A DNA stretch of 40,197 nucleotides from a virus, in IMG/VR virus record IMGVR_UViG_3300033571_012915, positions 1-40,197 of that record; one strand, given 5' to 3'. Made by a program: the position numbers and the translations under genes. Positions within the stretch are counted from its first letter, which is position 1, and each line of letters starts with the position of its first letter. The notes under the pieces are model-generated. The model had not been told where the DNA came from. It saw only the letters and a program-made list of their open reading frames with translations, and searched no databases. Of this stretch, positions 5,425-9,810 are shown piece by piece.

Positions 5425-5474
5425 GCTCAGTCTGCATCGCCCTTGCCTTCCTAGATGGTGGGGTGAGATGGTGA
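5421..5474 (+). CDS. Possible 17-codon leader peptide before methyltransferase 1
   Basis: ATG 5421 has GGAGG in good position and overlaps the previous stop as ATGA. The 17-codon frame (MSSVCIALAFLDGGVRW) ends 6 nt inside the methyltransferase start at 5468. It is probably a translational relay that delivers ribosomes to the methyltransferase, not a functional protein. Confidence 0.35.
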   Translation: MSSVCIALAFLDGGVRW

Positions 5475-6238
5475 CCCATCTGTCACTATTTTCTGGAATC
5501 GGAGGCATCGACCTCGCAGCTCATTGGGCTGGATTCCGTTCGGTAGGAATGGTTGAGCGAGAACCATTCTGCAAGCAAGTCCTCGCGAAGAACTTCCCAG
5601 GAGTACCAATATTTGATGACGTTAAAGAATTCGATGGATCGCAGTTCAGAGGGGTCACGCTTGTCAGCGCAGGCTTCCCTTGCCCTCCCCACTCAGTTGC
5701 AGGAAAACGCCTTGCGTCTCGCGATGAGCGTGACCTGTGGGGTGACGTGGTCAGGATACTGGGGGAAGCGAAACCTAGATGGTTCGTGGGAGAGAATGTG
5801 TCAGGAATCCTTACCTCTGAACATGGACGATTCTTCGGACGAGTGGTGGATGACTTGGTGTCGATGGGGTTTCGTGTCGGATGGTGTATGTTTGGAGCTT
5901 GCGACGTTGAAGCTCCCCACGAAAGAGACCGAGTCTTTATACTTGCCCACTCCGACAACGAGTCAGGACTACAAGCCGATCCGTCAGCTCACTCCGTCCG
6001 AGAGTATGGGGAGTCATGGGAAGTCTCTTGTCGGAGCGATTGGGGACATATTCGGAATCAAAACTGGGACAGGGTATCGGTTAAACCCACAATTCACAGA
6101 GATGATGATGGGTTTTCCAAAGGACTGGACGAAAGTAGATTGAAAGCACTTGGCAATGCTGTTGTGCCGCAGCAAATTCTTCCAATTATGAACGCGATAT
6201 CACATATTGAATCGCGACCACAAGGAGAAACGAAATGA
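5468..6238 (+). CDS. Cytosine-C5 DNA methyltransferase 1
   Basis: A 256-residue Dcm-type enzyme. Motif I (LSLFSGIGGIDLAAHWAGF) binds AdoMet. Motif IV (SAGFPCPPHSVAGKR) carries catalytic Cys72, with Pro-His where Gln-Pro-Phe is usual. Motif VI is GENVSG, motif VIII ERDRVFILA and motif X ALGNAVVPQQ. The target-recognition region between VIII and X is only about 70 residues, much shorter than in typical enzymes, and that DNA also encodes another frame. No restriction endonuclease is adjacent, so it is an orphan enzyme, probably protecting phage DNA from host restriction. The ATG at 5468 is chosen because motif I begins at once and the upstream frame is the shadow of the previous gene. Confidence 0.88.
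   Translation: MVTHLSLFSGIGGIDLAAHWAGFRSVGMVEREPFCKQVLAKNFPGVPIFDDVKEFDGSQFRGVTLVSAGFPCPPHSVAGKRLASRDERDLWGDVVRILGEAKPRWFVGENVSGILTSEHGRFFGRVVDDLVSMGFRVGWCMFGACDVEAPHERDRVFILAHSDNESGLQADPSAHSVREYGESWEVSCRSDWGHIRNQNWDRVSVKPTIHRDDDGFSKGLDESRLKALGNAVVPQQILPIMNAISHIESRPQGETK
5553..6143 (+). CDS. Nested +1-frame ORF inside methyltransferase 1
   Basis: An open frame of up to 196 codons wholly inside the methyltransferase gene, in the +1 register. The C-terminal 75 residues do not look like noise: LPTPTTSQDYKPIRQL, then GSHGKSLVGAIGDIFGIKTG and RLNPQFTEMMMGFPKDW. From memory, phage and methyltransferase-linked proteins often carry W/LPTPT...LNP.F..W.MGFP..W segments. The first 100 residues are less convincing, so the functional product may start later, or the segment may be reached by frameshifting from the methyltransferase. 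The TTG start at 5553 is only the first possible one. The function is unknown; it might supply the recognition part missing from the short host frame. Confidence 0.45.
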   Translation: MSENHSASKSSRRTSQEYQYLMTLKNSMDRSSEGSRLSAQASLALPTQLQENALRLAMSVTCGVTWSGYWGKRNLDGSWERMCQESLPLNMDDSSDEWWMTWCRWGFVSDGVCLELATLKLPTKETESLYLPTPTTSQDYKPIRQLTPSESMGSHGKSLVGAIGDIFGIKTGTGYRLNPQFTEMMMGFPKDWTKVD

Positions 6239-6495
6239 AGATCACCGTTGAATACATCGAAATCGAAGGGGAGCAAGTTCGCGTGAACACCTATCCAAGT
6301 GGGCAGAAATCCTACGGGTGGAAAGACGAGAGCGGCGACATGGTTTGGTCTGACTTCAAGCCACTGACAAGCGAAGAACGTGCCGAACGAGACGAGAAAT
6401 TGAGCCGACTTCACAGGAAAGCAAATACCGCATTGTTGGGGCTAGCTTGCGCCACCGGAGCGTTAATGGTCGAGCCAATCAGGAGAGAGAAATGA
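6235..6495 (+). CDS. Early protein of unknown function (86 aa)
   Basis: An 86-residue protein with an N-terminal beta-rich region (MKITVEYIEIEGEQVRVNTY), a charged helix, and a weakly hydrophobic helix near the end (TALLGLACATGALMV). It overlaps the methyltransferase stop as ATGA, with AAGGAG upstream. No family is recognised. Confidence 0.68.
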   Translation: MKITVEYIEIEGEQVRVNTYPSGQKSYGWKDESGDMVWSDFKPLTSEERAERDEKLSRLHRKANTALLGLACATGALMVEPIRREK

Positions 6496-6530
6496 ACACG
6501 AAGGGAAGACCCCAGAAGGAGGAAGCATGA
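6492..6530 (+). CDS. 12-codon coupling ORF
   Basis: A 12-codon frame (MNTKGRPQKEEA) whose ATG overlaps the previous stop (ATGA) and whose stop overlaps the next ATG (ATGA). It contains the GAAGGAGGAAG ribosome-binding site of the next gene. It is probably a translational bridge and has little chance of being a functional protein. Confidence 0.25.
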   Translation: MNTKGRPQKEEA

Positions 6531-6892
6531 AGAGCCTGAACGAGAAGCTGGCGGTTGAGGTGATGGGATGGACTTCGGACGGTGGTTACAACTACTTCTC
6601 TGAAACGAAGGTTGCCCCAGACTGGTCATTCCATGAAGAGAAAGGCGACAGGGGGTTATTTGTCTACCCAGCAATATGGTGGAACCCAACCCAAGACCTG
6701 AACCAGCTGCGGGAGTGTTATCTGGCGGCGGAGAAGGATAACCCGATTGTTTTCTGGGCTATGTACTGGTCGGAGTTGAAGAAACTATTCTCATCGTCGC
6801 TGATTGAAGAAGACGCGCATTGTGCAACCGCATGGGTCAAACATCCGGAACTCGTAGCCCAAGCCATTCTCAAGGCTAAGGGGGTGGAGTGA
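6527..6892 (+). CDS. Phage ABA-sandwich-like protein
   Basis: A 121-residue protein whose pattern (NEKLAVEVMGW, a Trp-rich middle with WNPTQDLNQLRECYLAAEK, and a C-terminal helix) resembles the small phage proteins with an alpha-beta-alpha sandwich fold found in early operons of many temperate phages. Their biochemical role is unknown. A strong AGGAGG site precedes the ATG. The assignment is by pattern only. Confidence 0.6.
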   Translation: MKSLNEKLAVEVMGWTSDGGYNYFSETKVAPDWSFHEEKGDRGLFVYPAIWWNPTQDLNQLRECYLAAEKDNPIVFWAMYWSELKKLFSSSLIEEDAHCATAWVKHPELVAQAILKAKGVE

Positions 6893-7332
6893 TGGATGCT
6901 GAAGTTAGACGGATTGTGTGGGACAAGGTTCTGAGCAACCAACGACACCCGCTGACTTGCGGAAATGACCGAGGCGATCAAGTGCACCGTGAGTATCAGG
7001 CGATTCACGGAGGCTACTTGGGAGAACTTGTCAAGACCGAGAACGGGATGGAATGCCCTGTCTGCGGATGGAAACAACCGCCTAGCGTCTTTGACCAAAT
7101 CGCCCAACTAACCGCCGAGAACGAGCGGCTGCAGCGGGTGGTGGAGCATCTAACCAGAGGCGCATCTGAGCTATCCGAGATTGTGGAAGGCTACTTGTCT
7201 GGGAATGGGCATGACCCCAAAGAAGAGGCTGGAATCAAAGAGCATTATCCAGTCGCCTACGAGCTTCTGGTTGGCAATGGATACCCGCCAATAATCGAAG
7301 CCCACCTAAAGCGGGAGGACGGGAATGGGTGA
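6889..7332 (+). CDS. Putative zinc-binding early protein with coiled coil
   Basis: A 147-residue protein. The first 60 residues hold one clear CxxC pair (MECPVCGWKQ) and an upstream His/Cys segment (RHPLTCGNDRGDQVH), together a plausible four-ligand zinc site. A short heptad region follows (QIAQLTAENERLQRVVEHL). The combination suggests a small metal-stabilised binding module with a dimerising helix. Start is GTG 6889 or ATG 6892. It overlaps both neighbours by a few bases. Confidence 0.65.
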   Translation: MMDAEVRRIVWDKVLSNQRHPLTCGNDRGDQVHREYQAIHGGYLGELVKTENGMECPVCGWKQPPSVFDQIAQLTAENERLQRVVEHLTRGASELSEIVEGYLSGNGHDPKEEAGIKEHYPVAYELLVGNGYPPIIEAHLKREDGNG

Positions 7333-7636
7333 GTTAACTCAGAACCAGATTGACGACATCCGGCACACGCTCGGGTGGAGCCACACGCCAAAGGTCAACA
7401 AGCTAGGTTGGCGCAACTACTACTGGACAAAGGAGCAACTGCCAGAGCTTGACGATCTCGTAGCCAAGGGTTTTATGGTTCGGCATCCAATCAACCCAAT
7501 CTATCAGGTGACCAAGGCGGGAGCAAAAGCAATCGGCATGAGCGACAAGCGGATTAAGAAACTTGGAGACGTGTTGCAAGACCCACGCCCAACCCCCGAA
7601 GGCATGAAGCAGGTGTGGCCGGAGGTGGAGGGTTGA
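7325..7636 (+). CDS. Early protein of unknown function, possible winged-helix (103 aa)
   Basis: A 103-residue basic protein. The arrangement of helices and a strand pair (YYWTKEQLPELDDLVAKGFM then HPINPIYQVTKAGAKAIGM) resembles a winged-helix module of the kind that ends with a V-T-x-x-G-x-x-A pattern. Its stop codon abuts the ATG of the nested frame at 7637, and its tail contains GGAGGTGGAGGG, a strong ribosome-binding site for the next gene. Confidence 0.65.
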   Translation: MGELTQNQIDDIRHTLGWSHTPKVNKLGWRNYYWTKEQLPELDDLVAKGFMVRHPINPIYQVTKAGAKAIGMSDKRIKKLGDVLQDPRPTPEGMKQVWPEVEG

Positions 7637-8577
7637 ATGGCTTGGTACAACGAGTTCGACCCCAGAGCGGCGGTGTGGCTCCAATCCCTAGCGGACGGGT
7701 TGACACAAGATCAATTACAGAGCTTCGACCCGAGGACATTCCAGATTCCGGTCAGTGCCACTTCTTTGCCGGAATTGGAGGCTGGGGCCTTGCTTTTAGA
7801 CTTGCAGGGATCTCAGACGATGCCCACGCCTGGTCAGCAAGTCTGCCATGCCAGCCGTTCAGCATTGCAGGACAAAGAAGGGGACGTGAGGACGACAGAC
7901 ACCTGTTTCCAGTCTTCTATGAGCTTGTGCGAGTCAAGCGACCTCCAATCATTTTTGGAGAACAGGTTGCGTCAGCGGATGGACTTGAATGGCTCGCCGG
8001 AGTACACACTGCAATGGAAAACGCGGGTTACCTCTTCGCATCTGCCGATCTGTCAGCTGCGAGCGTCGGGGCGCCGCACGTCAGGCAAAGACTCTACTGG
8101 GGCGCATGGTTACCCGGCAGTGACCTGCAACACCGCAACGTGGACATCGGACGGGTTTGGGGACAATTTGCACGAAGCGGCAACCAAGCTGATGGGTTAT
8201 CCAACGGTGCGAGCGACGGGCGCATCCAGCACAACTCGGGAGGATTTCACGGACTCTCTGCCGGAGATTGCGACCAAACTCTTAGGCTACTCAACCCTAT
8301 CGGCATCGGATGCTCAGGGGAGCCACGGTGGAGGGCAGGGGTCGTCGGCCAGAACGGATGCCCAGATAGTGACGCATGGGGCGACCACTTCCAAGCCTGG
8401 GCAGACGGCACCACGCGGCGCACTGAACCCGGACTTCTGCCGCTGGCTCATGGGTTTCCCGAGAGAGTGGGTCTTATACGGGGCTTTGGCAATGCAATCG
8501 TCCCGCAAGTCGCCAAGGTCTTCATTGAAGAGTTCTGGGACGCCTGTATTGACTATCAACAAAGAGGCAGACAATGA
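7615..8577 (+). CDS. Cytosine-C5 DNA methyltransferase 2 (N-terminus probably frameshifted)
   Basis: Motif I (CHFFAGIGGWGLAFRLAG), motif IV (ASLPCQPFSIAGQRRGRE, catalytic Cys79), a variant motif VI (FGEQVAS), motif VIII region (GAPHVRQRLYWGAW) and motif X (GFGNAIVPQVAKV) identify a phage-type C5 enzyme distinct from the one at 5468. Homologues I recall begin with a YNE.DP.AA.WL helix. Here that helix is coded in the next frame (7637..7696), and a one-base slip at GGG 7697..7699 would join it to VDTRSI in this frame. Without the slip, translation must use GTG 7615 or GTG 7675. The catalytic core is complete either way. No endonuclease is nearby. Confidence 0.85.
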   Translation: MAGGGGLNGLVQRVRPQSGGVAPIPSGRVDTRSITELRPEDIPDSGQCHFFAGIGGWGLAFRLAGISDDAHAWSASLPCQPFSIAGQRRGREDDRHLFPVFYELVRVKRPPIIFGEQVASADGLEWLAGVHTAMENAGYLFASADLSAASVGAPHVRQRLYWGAWLPGSDLQHRNVDIGRVWGQFARSGNQADGLSNGASDGRIQHNSGGFHGLSAGDCDQTLRLLNPIGIGCSGEPRWRAGVVGQNGCPDSDAWGDHFQAWADGTTRRTEPGLLPLAHGFPERVGLIRGFGNAIVPQVAKVFIEEFWDACIDYQQRGRQ

Positions 8578-8587
8578 CCCCGATTGA
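7637..8587 (+). CDS. Nested +1-frame ORF over methyltransferase 2
   Basis: A 316-codon frame overlapping almost the whole methyltransferase in the +1 register. It has the best translation signal here: ATG directly after the previous stop, with GGAGG. Residues 1..20 (MAWYNEFDPRAAVWLQSLAD) look like the displaced methyltransferase N-terminus. The later part holds NGSPEYTLQWK, SHLPICQLRASGRRTSGKD, repeated motifs KLMGYPT and KLLGYST, and LNPDFCRWLMGFPREWV near the end. I recall similar proteins as hypothetical partners overlapping phage C5 methyltransferases. The function is unknown. The product could be a separate protein or a frameshift fusion. Confidence 0.5.
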   Translation: MAWYNEFDPRAAVWLQSLADGLTQDQLQSFDPRTFQIPVSATSLPELEAGALLLDLQGSQTMPTPGQQVCHASRSALQDKEGDVRTTDTCFQSSMSLCESSDLQSFLENRLRQRMDLNGSPEYTLQWKTRVTSSHLPICQLRASGRRTSGKDSTGAHGYPAVTCNTATWTSDGFGDNLHEAATKLMGYPTVRATGASSTTREDFTDSLPEIATKLLGYSTLSASDAQGSHGGGQGSSARTDAQIVTHGATTSKPGQTAPRGALNPDFCRWLMGFPREWVLYGALAMQSSRKSPRSSLKSSGTPVLTINKEADNDPD

Positions 8588-8930
8588 GCCGCCTGTCTAT
8601 CTCACCCCTCGTCAGTACGCCAAGCTGACCGGGGTGAGCTACCCCCAAGTTCTGGCAGCGATCAAGCAGTCGGACAAGCTGGCAAATTTACGAGTTGGAT
8701 GGAAATACCCGCAAGATGAGATCACCGAAGCACTACGATGTAGACCTAATGGAAATACACGTCGTCCCGTGGAAGGGGAAGTACAAGGCGTACCGCAACA
8801 TCCAGGGCAAGCGGATCGAGGCATCAGCCAAGACCGAGAAGGAAGCTATCGCCAAATGCAGAGCCAAGTTGTCCTCATTCCTCGCGCCAATGTCGGAAGC
8901 CTCGGAGGGCTACTGCGTAACAGTCATTGA
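8574..8930 (+). CDS. Excisionase-like HTH protein
   Basis: Residues 8..55 (YLTPRQYAKLTGVSYPQVLA, then a basic segment and VGWKYPQDEITEAL) form a MerR/excisionase-type winged HTH, as in the small directionality factors next to integrases. The gene overlaps the methyltransferase stop as ATGA. Beyond residue 57 the sequence becomes Arg/Gly/Gln rich and overlaps the integrase by up to 236 nt, so the C-terminus may be non-conserved. It is expected to bend DNA at the att site and favour excision. Confidence 0.72.
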   Translation: MTPIEPPVYLTPRQYAKLTGVSYPQVLAAIKQSDKLANLRVGWKYPQDEITEALRCRPNGNTRRPVEGEVQGVPQHPGQADRGISQDREGSYRQMQSQVVLIPRANVGSLGGLLRNSH

Positions 8931-9810
8931 TATTGCCGAGACGCTCTGGATTCCAACCCTTATTTCAAAGAAGTCCCGAACCCAGCACGGATACCAAACC
9001 GACTTCACCCGCTATGTTACGCCCACCATCGGGCAGATGCGCTACGCCGATGTTCGCCCTGTCGATGTGCAGAACTGGTACAACGGTCTACTCAAGAGAG
9101 TCTCGCCGGCCACGGCAAATAAGGCACTTGTCGTCCTTCGTGGCGTCTTCCGTGTTGCTCGTCGAAACCGGCTCATCGAATACAACCCATGCGAGGAGAT
9201 TGAAACGGTCGACGGCAAGAACAAGCGCGACTATTACATGAGCGGAGACCAGATCGGACTCATGCTCAACCGACTTGAAATGGGTGGTTACCCCGAGCTG
9301 GCTTTGGTTGCCTTTTTGGGCATGCAGTTTGGAATGCGACGCGGCGAAATCTGGGAACTGAAGCTCTCGGACATTGACACTGAAACCTGGGTCATGGGGA
9401 TCACAAGAGCAAGAGGGCGCGACAACGTGATTGGAGATCCGAAAGGGGGGAAGCGGTGGGTCATGTTCCCCTCTTCTCGCTACGACTATGTGTACAGGCT
9501 GATGGAGAAGACCGGAGCACTCGACAACAGCGAAGGCTACATCTGCACCAACGATGGTCTTGCTTGGTCCGCAACTTCACTGCAACGGCGAATCGACTGC
9601 GCCAAGAAGGACGGAGCCTGGACACAAGACCTTGTTCTCCACCACTCCCGGCACGTCTTCAACAACCTCGCTCTCAACAGCTCGAGGGCGTCATCAATGA
9701 AGGCGCTTGGTCACAAATCTGAGCAAGTGAACAATCAGTACACGTCCGTGAACGCCGCTTTGACGGCCTCAGCAATCGACGAGGTTGCGGAAAGGATCGG
9801 ACTGCTATGA
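8716..9810 (+). CDS. int: Tyrosine-family site-specific integrase
   Basis: A 364-residue recombinase with an N-terminal arm-binding AP2-like domain (VVPWKGKYKAYRNIQGKR), a helical core-binding domain (residues 70..160) and the catalytic domain. Catalytic residues seen: Arg in FGMRRGEIWELKLSD (about 208), a Lys strand (GGKRWVMF), His-x-x-Arg in LHHSRHVF (309/312), His in KALGHKSEQ (333) and nucleophile Tyr in NNQYTSV (342). It would integrate and, with the excisionase, excise the phage. Start is uncertain: TTG 8695, ATG 8716 or ATG 8749, all inside the excisionase gene. The repeat-rich region downstream is the natural attP candidate. Confidence 0.93.
   Translation: MRSPKHYDVDLMEIHVVPWKGKYKAYRNIQGKRIEASAKTEKEAIAKCRAKLSSFLAPMSEASEGYCVTVIDIAETLWIPTLISKKSRTQHGYQTDFTRYVTPTIGQMRYADVRPVDVQNWYNGLLKRVSPATANKALVVLRGVFRVARRNRLIEYNPCEEIETVDGKNKRDYYMSGDQIGLMLNRLEMGGYPELALVAFLGMQFGMRRGEIWELKLSDIDTETWVMGITRARGRDNVIGDPKGGKRWVMFPSSRYDYVYRLMEKTGALDNSEGYICTNDGLAWSATSLQRRIDCAKKDGAWTQDLVLHHSRHVFNNLALNSSRASSMKALGHKSEQVNNQYTSVNAALTASAIDEVAERIGLL

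Follow-up and report, generated by a model that had tools for sequence, protein, structure and literature searches.

A phage methyltransferase gene without motif IX holds a nested +1 frame

Why does a phage DNA methyltransferase gene with a very short recognition region contain a long second reading frame? This question is raised by a locus in a viral contig of 40,197 nucleotides (IMG/VR record IMGVR_UViG_3300033571_012915, positions 1 to 40,197), which is called the window here. The gene at positions 5468 to 6238 (plus strand, like the other alpha and beta features of the window) encodes alpha1, a protein of 256 amino acids that we assign as the large subunit of a C5-cytosine DNA methyltransferase and that matches Pfam DNA_methylase (1e-40) and PHROG 363 (1.4e-69). 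The Pfam match spans only positions 3 to 165 of the 324 of the model. Motifs I, IV (PC), VI (ENV), VIII (RxR), and X (GNxV) are all present in the translation. The Pro-Cys pair of motif IV, with the catalytic Cys72, lies at 5678 to 5683 in columns that are invariant in two alignments; motif VIII (HERDR) was read from the translation and alignment at 5918 to 5932, and motif X (GNAV) from the translation at 6152 to 6163, the C-terminal helices being confident in the structure model. By its catalytic motifs alpha1 is thus a C5-cytosine DNA methyltransferase, as judged from Pfam, a profile comparison with M.HhaI, the fold, and the translation. Its chain lacks motif IX and a complete recognition domain, and its stretch between motifs VIII and X measures 72 residues.

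The original prediction placed an open reading frame of 196 codons at 5553 to 6143, in the +1 frame of this gene. We confirmed this frame, beta1, which runs from a TTG at 5553, together with the end sequences given for it. Beta1 matches PHROG 1008 (7.7e-18), as does the nested frame of a second methyltransferase, beta2 (5.1e-21); the label of this family says only "DNA methyltransferase" and does not tell that its members overlap PHROG 363 genes in +1. The products of beta1 and beta2 had no significant match in Pfam or NCBIfam. An alignment of 73 relatives revealed an LPTPTAxDxK block that is conserved across the nested family and that corresponds to LPTPTTSQDYKPIRQL in beta1 (5943 to 5990). 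Further downstream, a putative motif IX, RLNPQFTEMMMGFPKDWT (6078 to 6131), was assigned from the same alignment, from hhalign, and from own-frame copies in the relatives L012, L372, and L373.

A second alpha/beta pair in the same phage

A second C5 methyltransferase of the same family, alpha2 (7615 to 8577, start uncertain), matches Pfam (1.6e-15) and PHROG 363 (7.2e-50). Its nested frame, beta2 (7637 to 8587), has the same +1 offset, as had been predicted, is supported by the null test described below, and carries a putative motif IX, LNPDFCRWLMGFPREW, at 8423 to 8470 according to the alignments. The two methyltransferases had been described as unrelated or only distantly related; since both match PHROG 363, they are distant homologues (∼27% identity), and the first of these options can be dropped. 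The two divergent pairs are ∼1.5 kb apart (5468 to 8587) with small genes between them; the only intervening gene that was scanned (6889 to 7332) gave no PHROG match. An integrase gene (8695 to 9810) lies nearby and, with the portal, terminase, and DnaB genes, fits a temperate phage.

The peptide read from the first ∼20 codons of beta2 is, in relatives, the N terminus of alpha, and residues 1 to 21 of beta2 weakly match positions 10 to 30 of PHROG 363 (E = 0.08). This peptide, YNEFDPRAAVWL, is N-terminal in the relatives of alpha2 and is found here in the beta2 frame, starting from the ATG at 7637 behind a strong Shine-Dalgarno site (region 7615 to 7760), while the residues that follow it, IPSGRVDTRSI, are in the frame of alpha2. 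Compared with L001, the alpha2 region seems to lack ∼25 bases, for which a true deletion, recoding, and an assembly error are candidates. Two other loci, L090 (1429 to 2171) and L183 (3545 to 4293), likewise have a broken alpha with its N-terminal half in the beta frame.

The nested frame is under selection together with its host frame

Because conservation of alpha by itself casts a shadow in the +1 frame, we used a null in which the alpha protein was held fixed and synonymous codons were permuted (2,000 trials). The nested region remained free of stop codons in 0.15% of the trials for alpha1 and in 0.05% for alpha2 (P = 0.0015 and 0.0005, respectively). When scored with a profile of the nested family built without the window sequences, beta1 reached 160.7 bits versus 62.5 ± 9.8 for its shuffles, and beta2 reached 137.0 versus 53.4 ± 7.6, which corresponds to z values of 10 and 11. 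Even shuffled alphas obtain ∼60 bits on this profile, as expected if the nested frame were a shadow of alpha conservation and base composition without any gene, but this effect explains under half of the score, and all 183 non-redundant loci outscored every one of their own shuffles.

We then considered how the frame is distributed. Among 231 loci from phage records, plasmid records, IMG/VR contigs, and prokaryote genomes, mostly picked by similarity to beta, 229 had a beta that lies +1 within an alpha, and in the remaining two the alpha was broken between frames; at none of the 231 was beta seen apart from an overlapping alpha. Since this sample had been picked mostly by beta, 80 loci were fetched by alpha sequence alone, and the nested frame was in +1 in all 80. 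Of these alphas, whose selection ignored beta, 71 were non-redundant, and their longest open stretch in +1 was unusual (P ≤ 0.05) in 70, compared with a single case for the +2 frame; the median +1 run was 228 codons versus a mean of 103 in shuffles. The host genomes belong to Bacillota, Cyanobacteriota, Pseudomonadota, Actinomycetota, Verrucomicrobiota, and candidate phyla. Several alpha/beta loci occur per genome in Nostoc (L191 to L193, L196 to L198, L200, and L201), and several contigs of the L191 genome match PHROG 1008.

Selection was measured on 49 independent pairs of related alphas. The ratio of substitutions at codon position 3 to those at position 1 of alpha was 2.45 outside the overlap (95%, 2.10 to 2.87) and 0.93 within it (0.83 to 1.02). 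The third position of an alpha codon is the second of a beta codon, and the low ratio is therefore as predicted by purifying selection on both frames. The stretch at the first methyltransferase therefore codes for two proteins, as our computation shows, and the idea of a common and selected arrangement holds in view of the 80 alpha-fetched relatives and the codon-position constraint of dual coding. An open reading frame due to chance or shadow was rejected by the alpha-fixed null, the inverted codon-position rates in the overlap, and the comparison of +1 and +2 open runs; we give it a vanishingly small probability.

In 15 annotated records, alpha was annotated in 13, beta in 2 (L001 and L003), and both in none. 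In the two phage records L001 (1589 to 2518) and L003 (1480 to 2205), it is the nested frame that was annotated as a gene, under the names Mte8-like protein and hypothetical protein, with no annotation for the methyltransferase frame.

Motif IX is found in the nested frame

The C terminus of beta1 (LNPxFxEWMMGFPxGWT) aligns to motif IX of C5 methyltransferases. In the 73 relatives, M186, G187, and P189 are invariant, and W192 is present in at least 90%. When beta was compared by hhalign with ordinary C5 methyltransferases, the sole reported match was that of its C-terminal end to motif IX, with P values of 2e-4 (C-terminal template) and 3e-3 (full template) and probabilities of 10 to 48% over only 22 to 26 aligned columns. 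Conversely, a regular expression for the canonical motif IX found it in the own frame of alpha in 0 of 80 and 0 of 225 relatives, with the exception of L012, where the motif was seen with the beta-type pattern. Computation thus shows a motif IX, as recognizable from sequence, that is absent from alpha and present in beta.

We extended the detection with a looser regular expression, hhalign, and a motif profile. With the profile, motif IX was assigned to the +1 frame at 325 loci, to the alpha frame at 11, to the third frame at 4, and to both at none, with no match at 18. Nearly all of the latter are ordinary methyltransferases, and the 11 own-frame loci include duplicate views of one place, two frame-broken alphas, and the ordinary methyltransferase L329. 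At L282, L302, L085, and L087, the motif IX profile matched best in the third frame, counted from the frame of the best alpha hit; these alphas are probably broken by indels.

In L012 (mycobacteriophage Phasih) and in the actinobacterial loci L371, L372, and L373, the beta-type motif IX is in the own frame of alpha, between motifs VIII and X and immediately ahead of GNGVVPQQ or GNGVVPRQ. These own-frame copies give the strongest link between beta and motif IX. In L370, motifs IX and X are both in the +1 frame, and the alpha frame ends after motif VIII. A tree with ordinary methyltransferases as the outgroup placed the single-frame lineage within the split family (fork at 100/96), which suggests a re-fusion of the split family, the deepest fork that decides this being weak (92/70).

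In the actinobacterial loci L370 to L375 and L382, the +1 frame still encodes the N-terminal part of beta despite motif IX in the alpha frame (in L370, motifs IX and X are in +1); therefore, the N terminus of beta may have a role of its own. The case that was originally named as contrary, a relative with the recognition part in its own frame and no +1 frame, is found in its first half in these actinobacteria, which have an own-frame motif IX, but not in its second, as the N-terminal part is kept.

Structure models place the gap of alpha1 between motifs VIII and X

The model of alpha1 had a mean pLDDT of 80, and residues 166 to 171 and 173 to 207 were under 50 and are predicted to be disordered. 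It superimposed on M.HhaI with a Z score of 26 over 209 aligned residues, spanning residues 1 to 253 and including motif X, with the region of the small domain of M.HhaI missing or disordered in alpha1. The alpha1-family profile matched M.HhaI over motifs I to VIII (3e-38). The claim that the recognition region is short and that the missing part is in the nested frame was thus supported: the gap of 72 residues is mostly modelled as disordered, the nested C terminus aligns to motif IX, and some relatives have motif IX between VIII and X in the own frame of alpha. Motif IX is the best-shown contribution of the nested protein, which may also set sequence specificity, as originally suggested.

Beta1 modelled alone had a mean pLDDT of 61.5 and only its C-terminal third was confident. 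No match to this model was found in the PDB with Foldseek or VIA, and the beta profile found nothing among PDB sequences. As beta may fold only with alpha, the weak model was not counted against the hypothesis.

Beta is probably translated from its own start codon

Candidate starts for beta1 that are likelier than the TTG at 5553 are a TTG at 5613 (176 amino acids) and an ATG at 5616 (175 amino acids), located 9 and 12 bases, respectively, after AGGAG (5599 to 5603), a candidate Shine-Dalgarno site from the sequence and a scan of start codons. Close to where the conserved beta begins, 222 of 241 loci had an in-frame ATG (control frame, 92), and 166 of 241 had a start codon preceded by a Shine-Dalgarno-like site (control frame, 48). 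This enrichment makes independent initiation likelier than frameshifting, so that of the two options in the original prediction, a separate protein or a frameshift product, the former is favored.

Programmed frameshifting off alpha would yield a chimera of the alpha N terminus and beta. Such a scheme could account for the N-terminal peptide of alpha2 relatives being in the beta2 frame behind a strong Shine-Dalgarno site and for the N-terminal half of alpha being in the beta frame in L090 and L183. Yet the beta frame usually has a stop codon ∼19 codons (median) upstream of its conserved part, in addition to the frequent in-frame ATG, often with a Shine-Dalgarno site. The conserved part of beta also starts ∼21 codons before motif IV of alpha, which implies a long stretch translated in both frames, and a frameshift after motif VIII would leave the selection on the N-terminal part of beta unexplained. 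Frame-joined alphas make up ∼1% and may be indels. Altogether, we consider frameshifting improbable.

A proposed two-subunit methyltransferase

We propose, with good confidence, that the locus encodes a two-subunit C5-cytosine DNA methyltransferase whose small subunit comes from an independently started, nested +1 gene. Alpha1 would supply the SAM-binding and catalytic domain (motifs I to VIII) and motif X. Beta1, presumably initiated inside alpha1 from its own start codon, would bring motif IX and probably also a portion of the small domain for DNA recognition. Both chains would then assemble into an active enzyme, which may protect the phage DNA from restriction.

Beta could instead be a functional protein that arose by overprinting and has nothing to do with methylation, such as a regulator or an anti-defence protein. 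Its N-terminal part is conserved without a named domain in Pfam or NCBIfam, and this part persists in +1 in the actinobacterial relatives with motif IX in the alpha frame, both of which would suit such a protein. However, the distribution of motif IX is complementary between the frames, single-frame relatives exist, and none of the 231 loci had a beta lacking an overlapping alpha. An unrelated job is therefore very improbable, and we retain the two-subunit enzyme as our working model. If it is right, alpha cloned alone would give a dead enzyme.

At a more general level, we see about even chances that these genes form a large family of phage C5 methyltransferases over many bacterial phyla, with an essential subunit routinely nested in +1 and an essential motif IX that moved between frames, the split being ancestral and re-fused in an actinobacterial lineage. 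If so, the overlapping genes would here have arisen by relocation of an existing domain and not by de novo overprinting. Hundreds of phages and prophages share the arrangement. The family offers a large natural collection of cases in which two interacting proteins evolve in one stretch of DNA, and its single-frame relatives allow the origin of the overlap to be tested. Because annotation pipelines keep just one of the two frames, the entries for hundreds of phage methyltransferases probably describe half an enzyme. Within the part of the literature on phage methyltransferases with nested frames that we covered, the arrangement is nowhere described as a general trait of phages, and neither its wide distribution among them nor the relocation of motif IX from one frame to the other appears to have been described.

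Comparison with known split and single-chain methyltransferases

In 1995, Lee, Kam and Shaw reportedly showed that the gene for the small subunit of M.EcoHK31I, an enzyme of which M.EaeI is an isoschizomer, lies within that for the large subunit in another reading frame. A nesting of this kind was found in the window and at 229 of the 231 loci, with the signature of dual coding. M.EcoHK31I is a two-polypeptide C5 methyltransferase with motifs I to VIII and X on its large chain and motif IX alone on the small one, and M.AquI is a natural split C5 methyltransferase with motif IX on its second polypeptide (PMC3404938). Like the large subunit of M.EcoHK31I, alpha1 has motifs I to VIII and X but not IX, and beta would correspond to the small polypeptide by its motif IX, a short motif identified by sequence only.

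M.AquI (CYCGRG) has both IX and X on its second chain, whereas alpha1 keeps X and thus departs from this type of split; L370, with IX and X together in +1, would fit it. M.HhaI and M.HaeIII share with alpha1 the fold of the catalytic domain and motifs I to VIII and X but, unlike alpha1, are single chains that also carry the small recognition domain and motif IX. M.EcoHK31I (YGGCCR) is an enzyme of bacterial restriction-modification, and its recognition domain is reported to lie in the large subunit, whereas alpha1/beta1 is phage borne and alpha1 has no more than 72 residues from motif VIII to motif X. With these differences, the alpha1/beta1 locus would by analogy work like M.EcoHK31I, the likeness being one of architecture.
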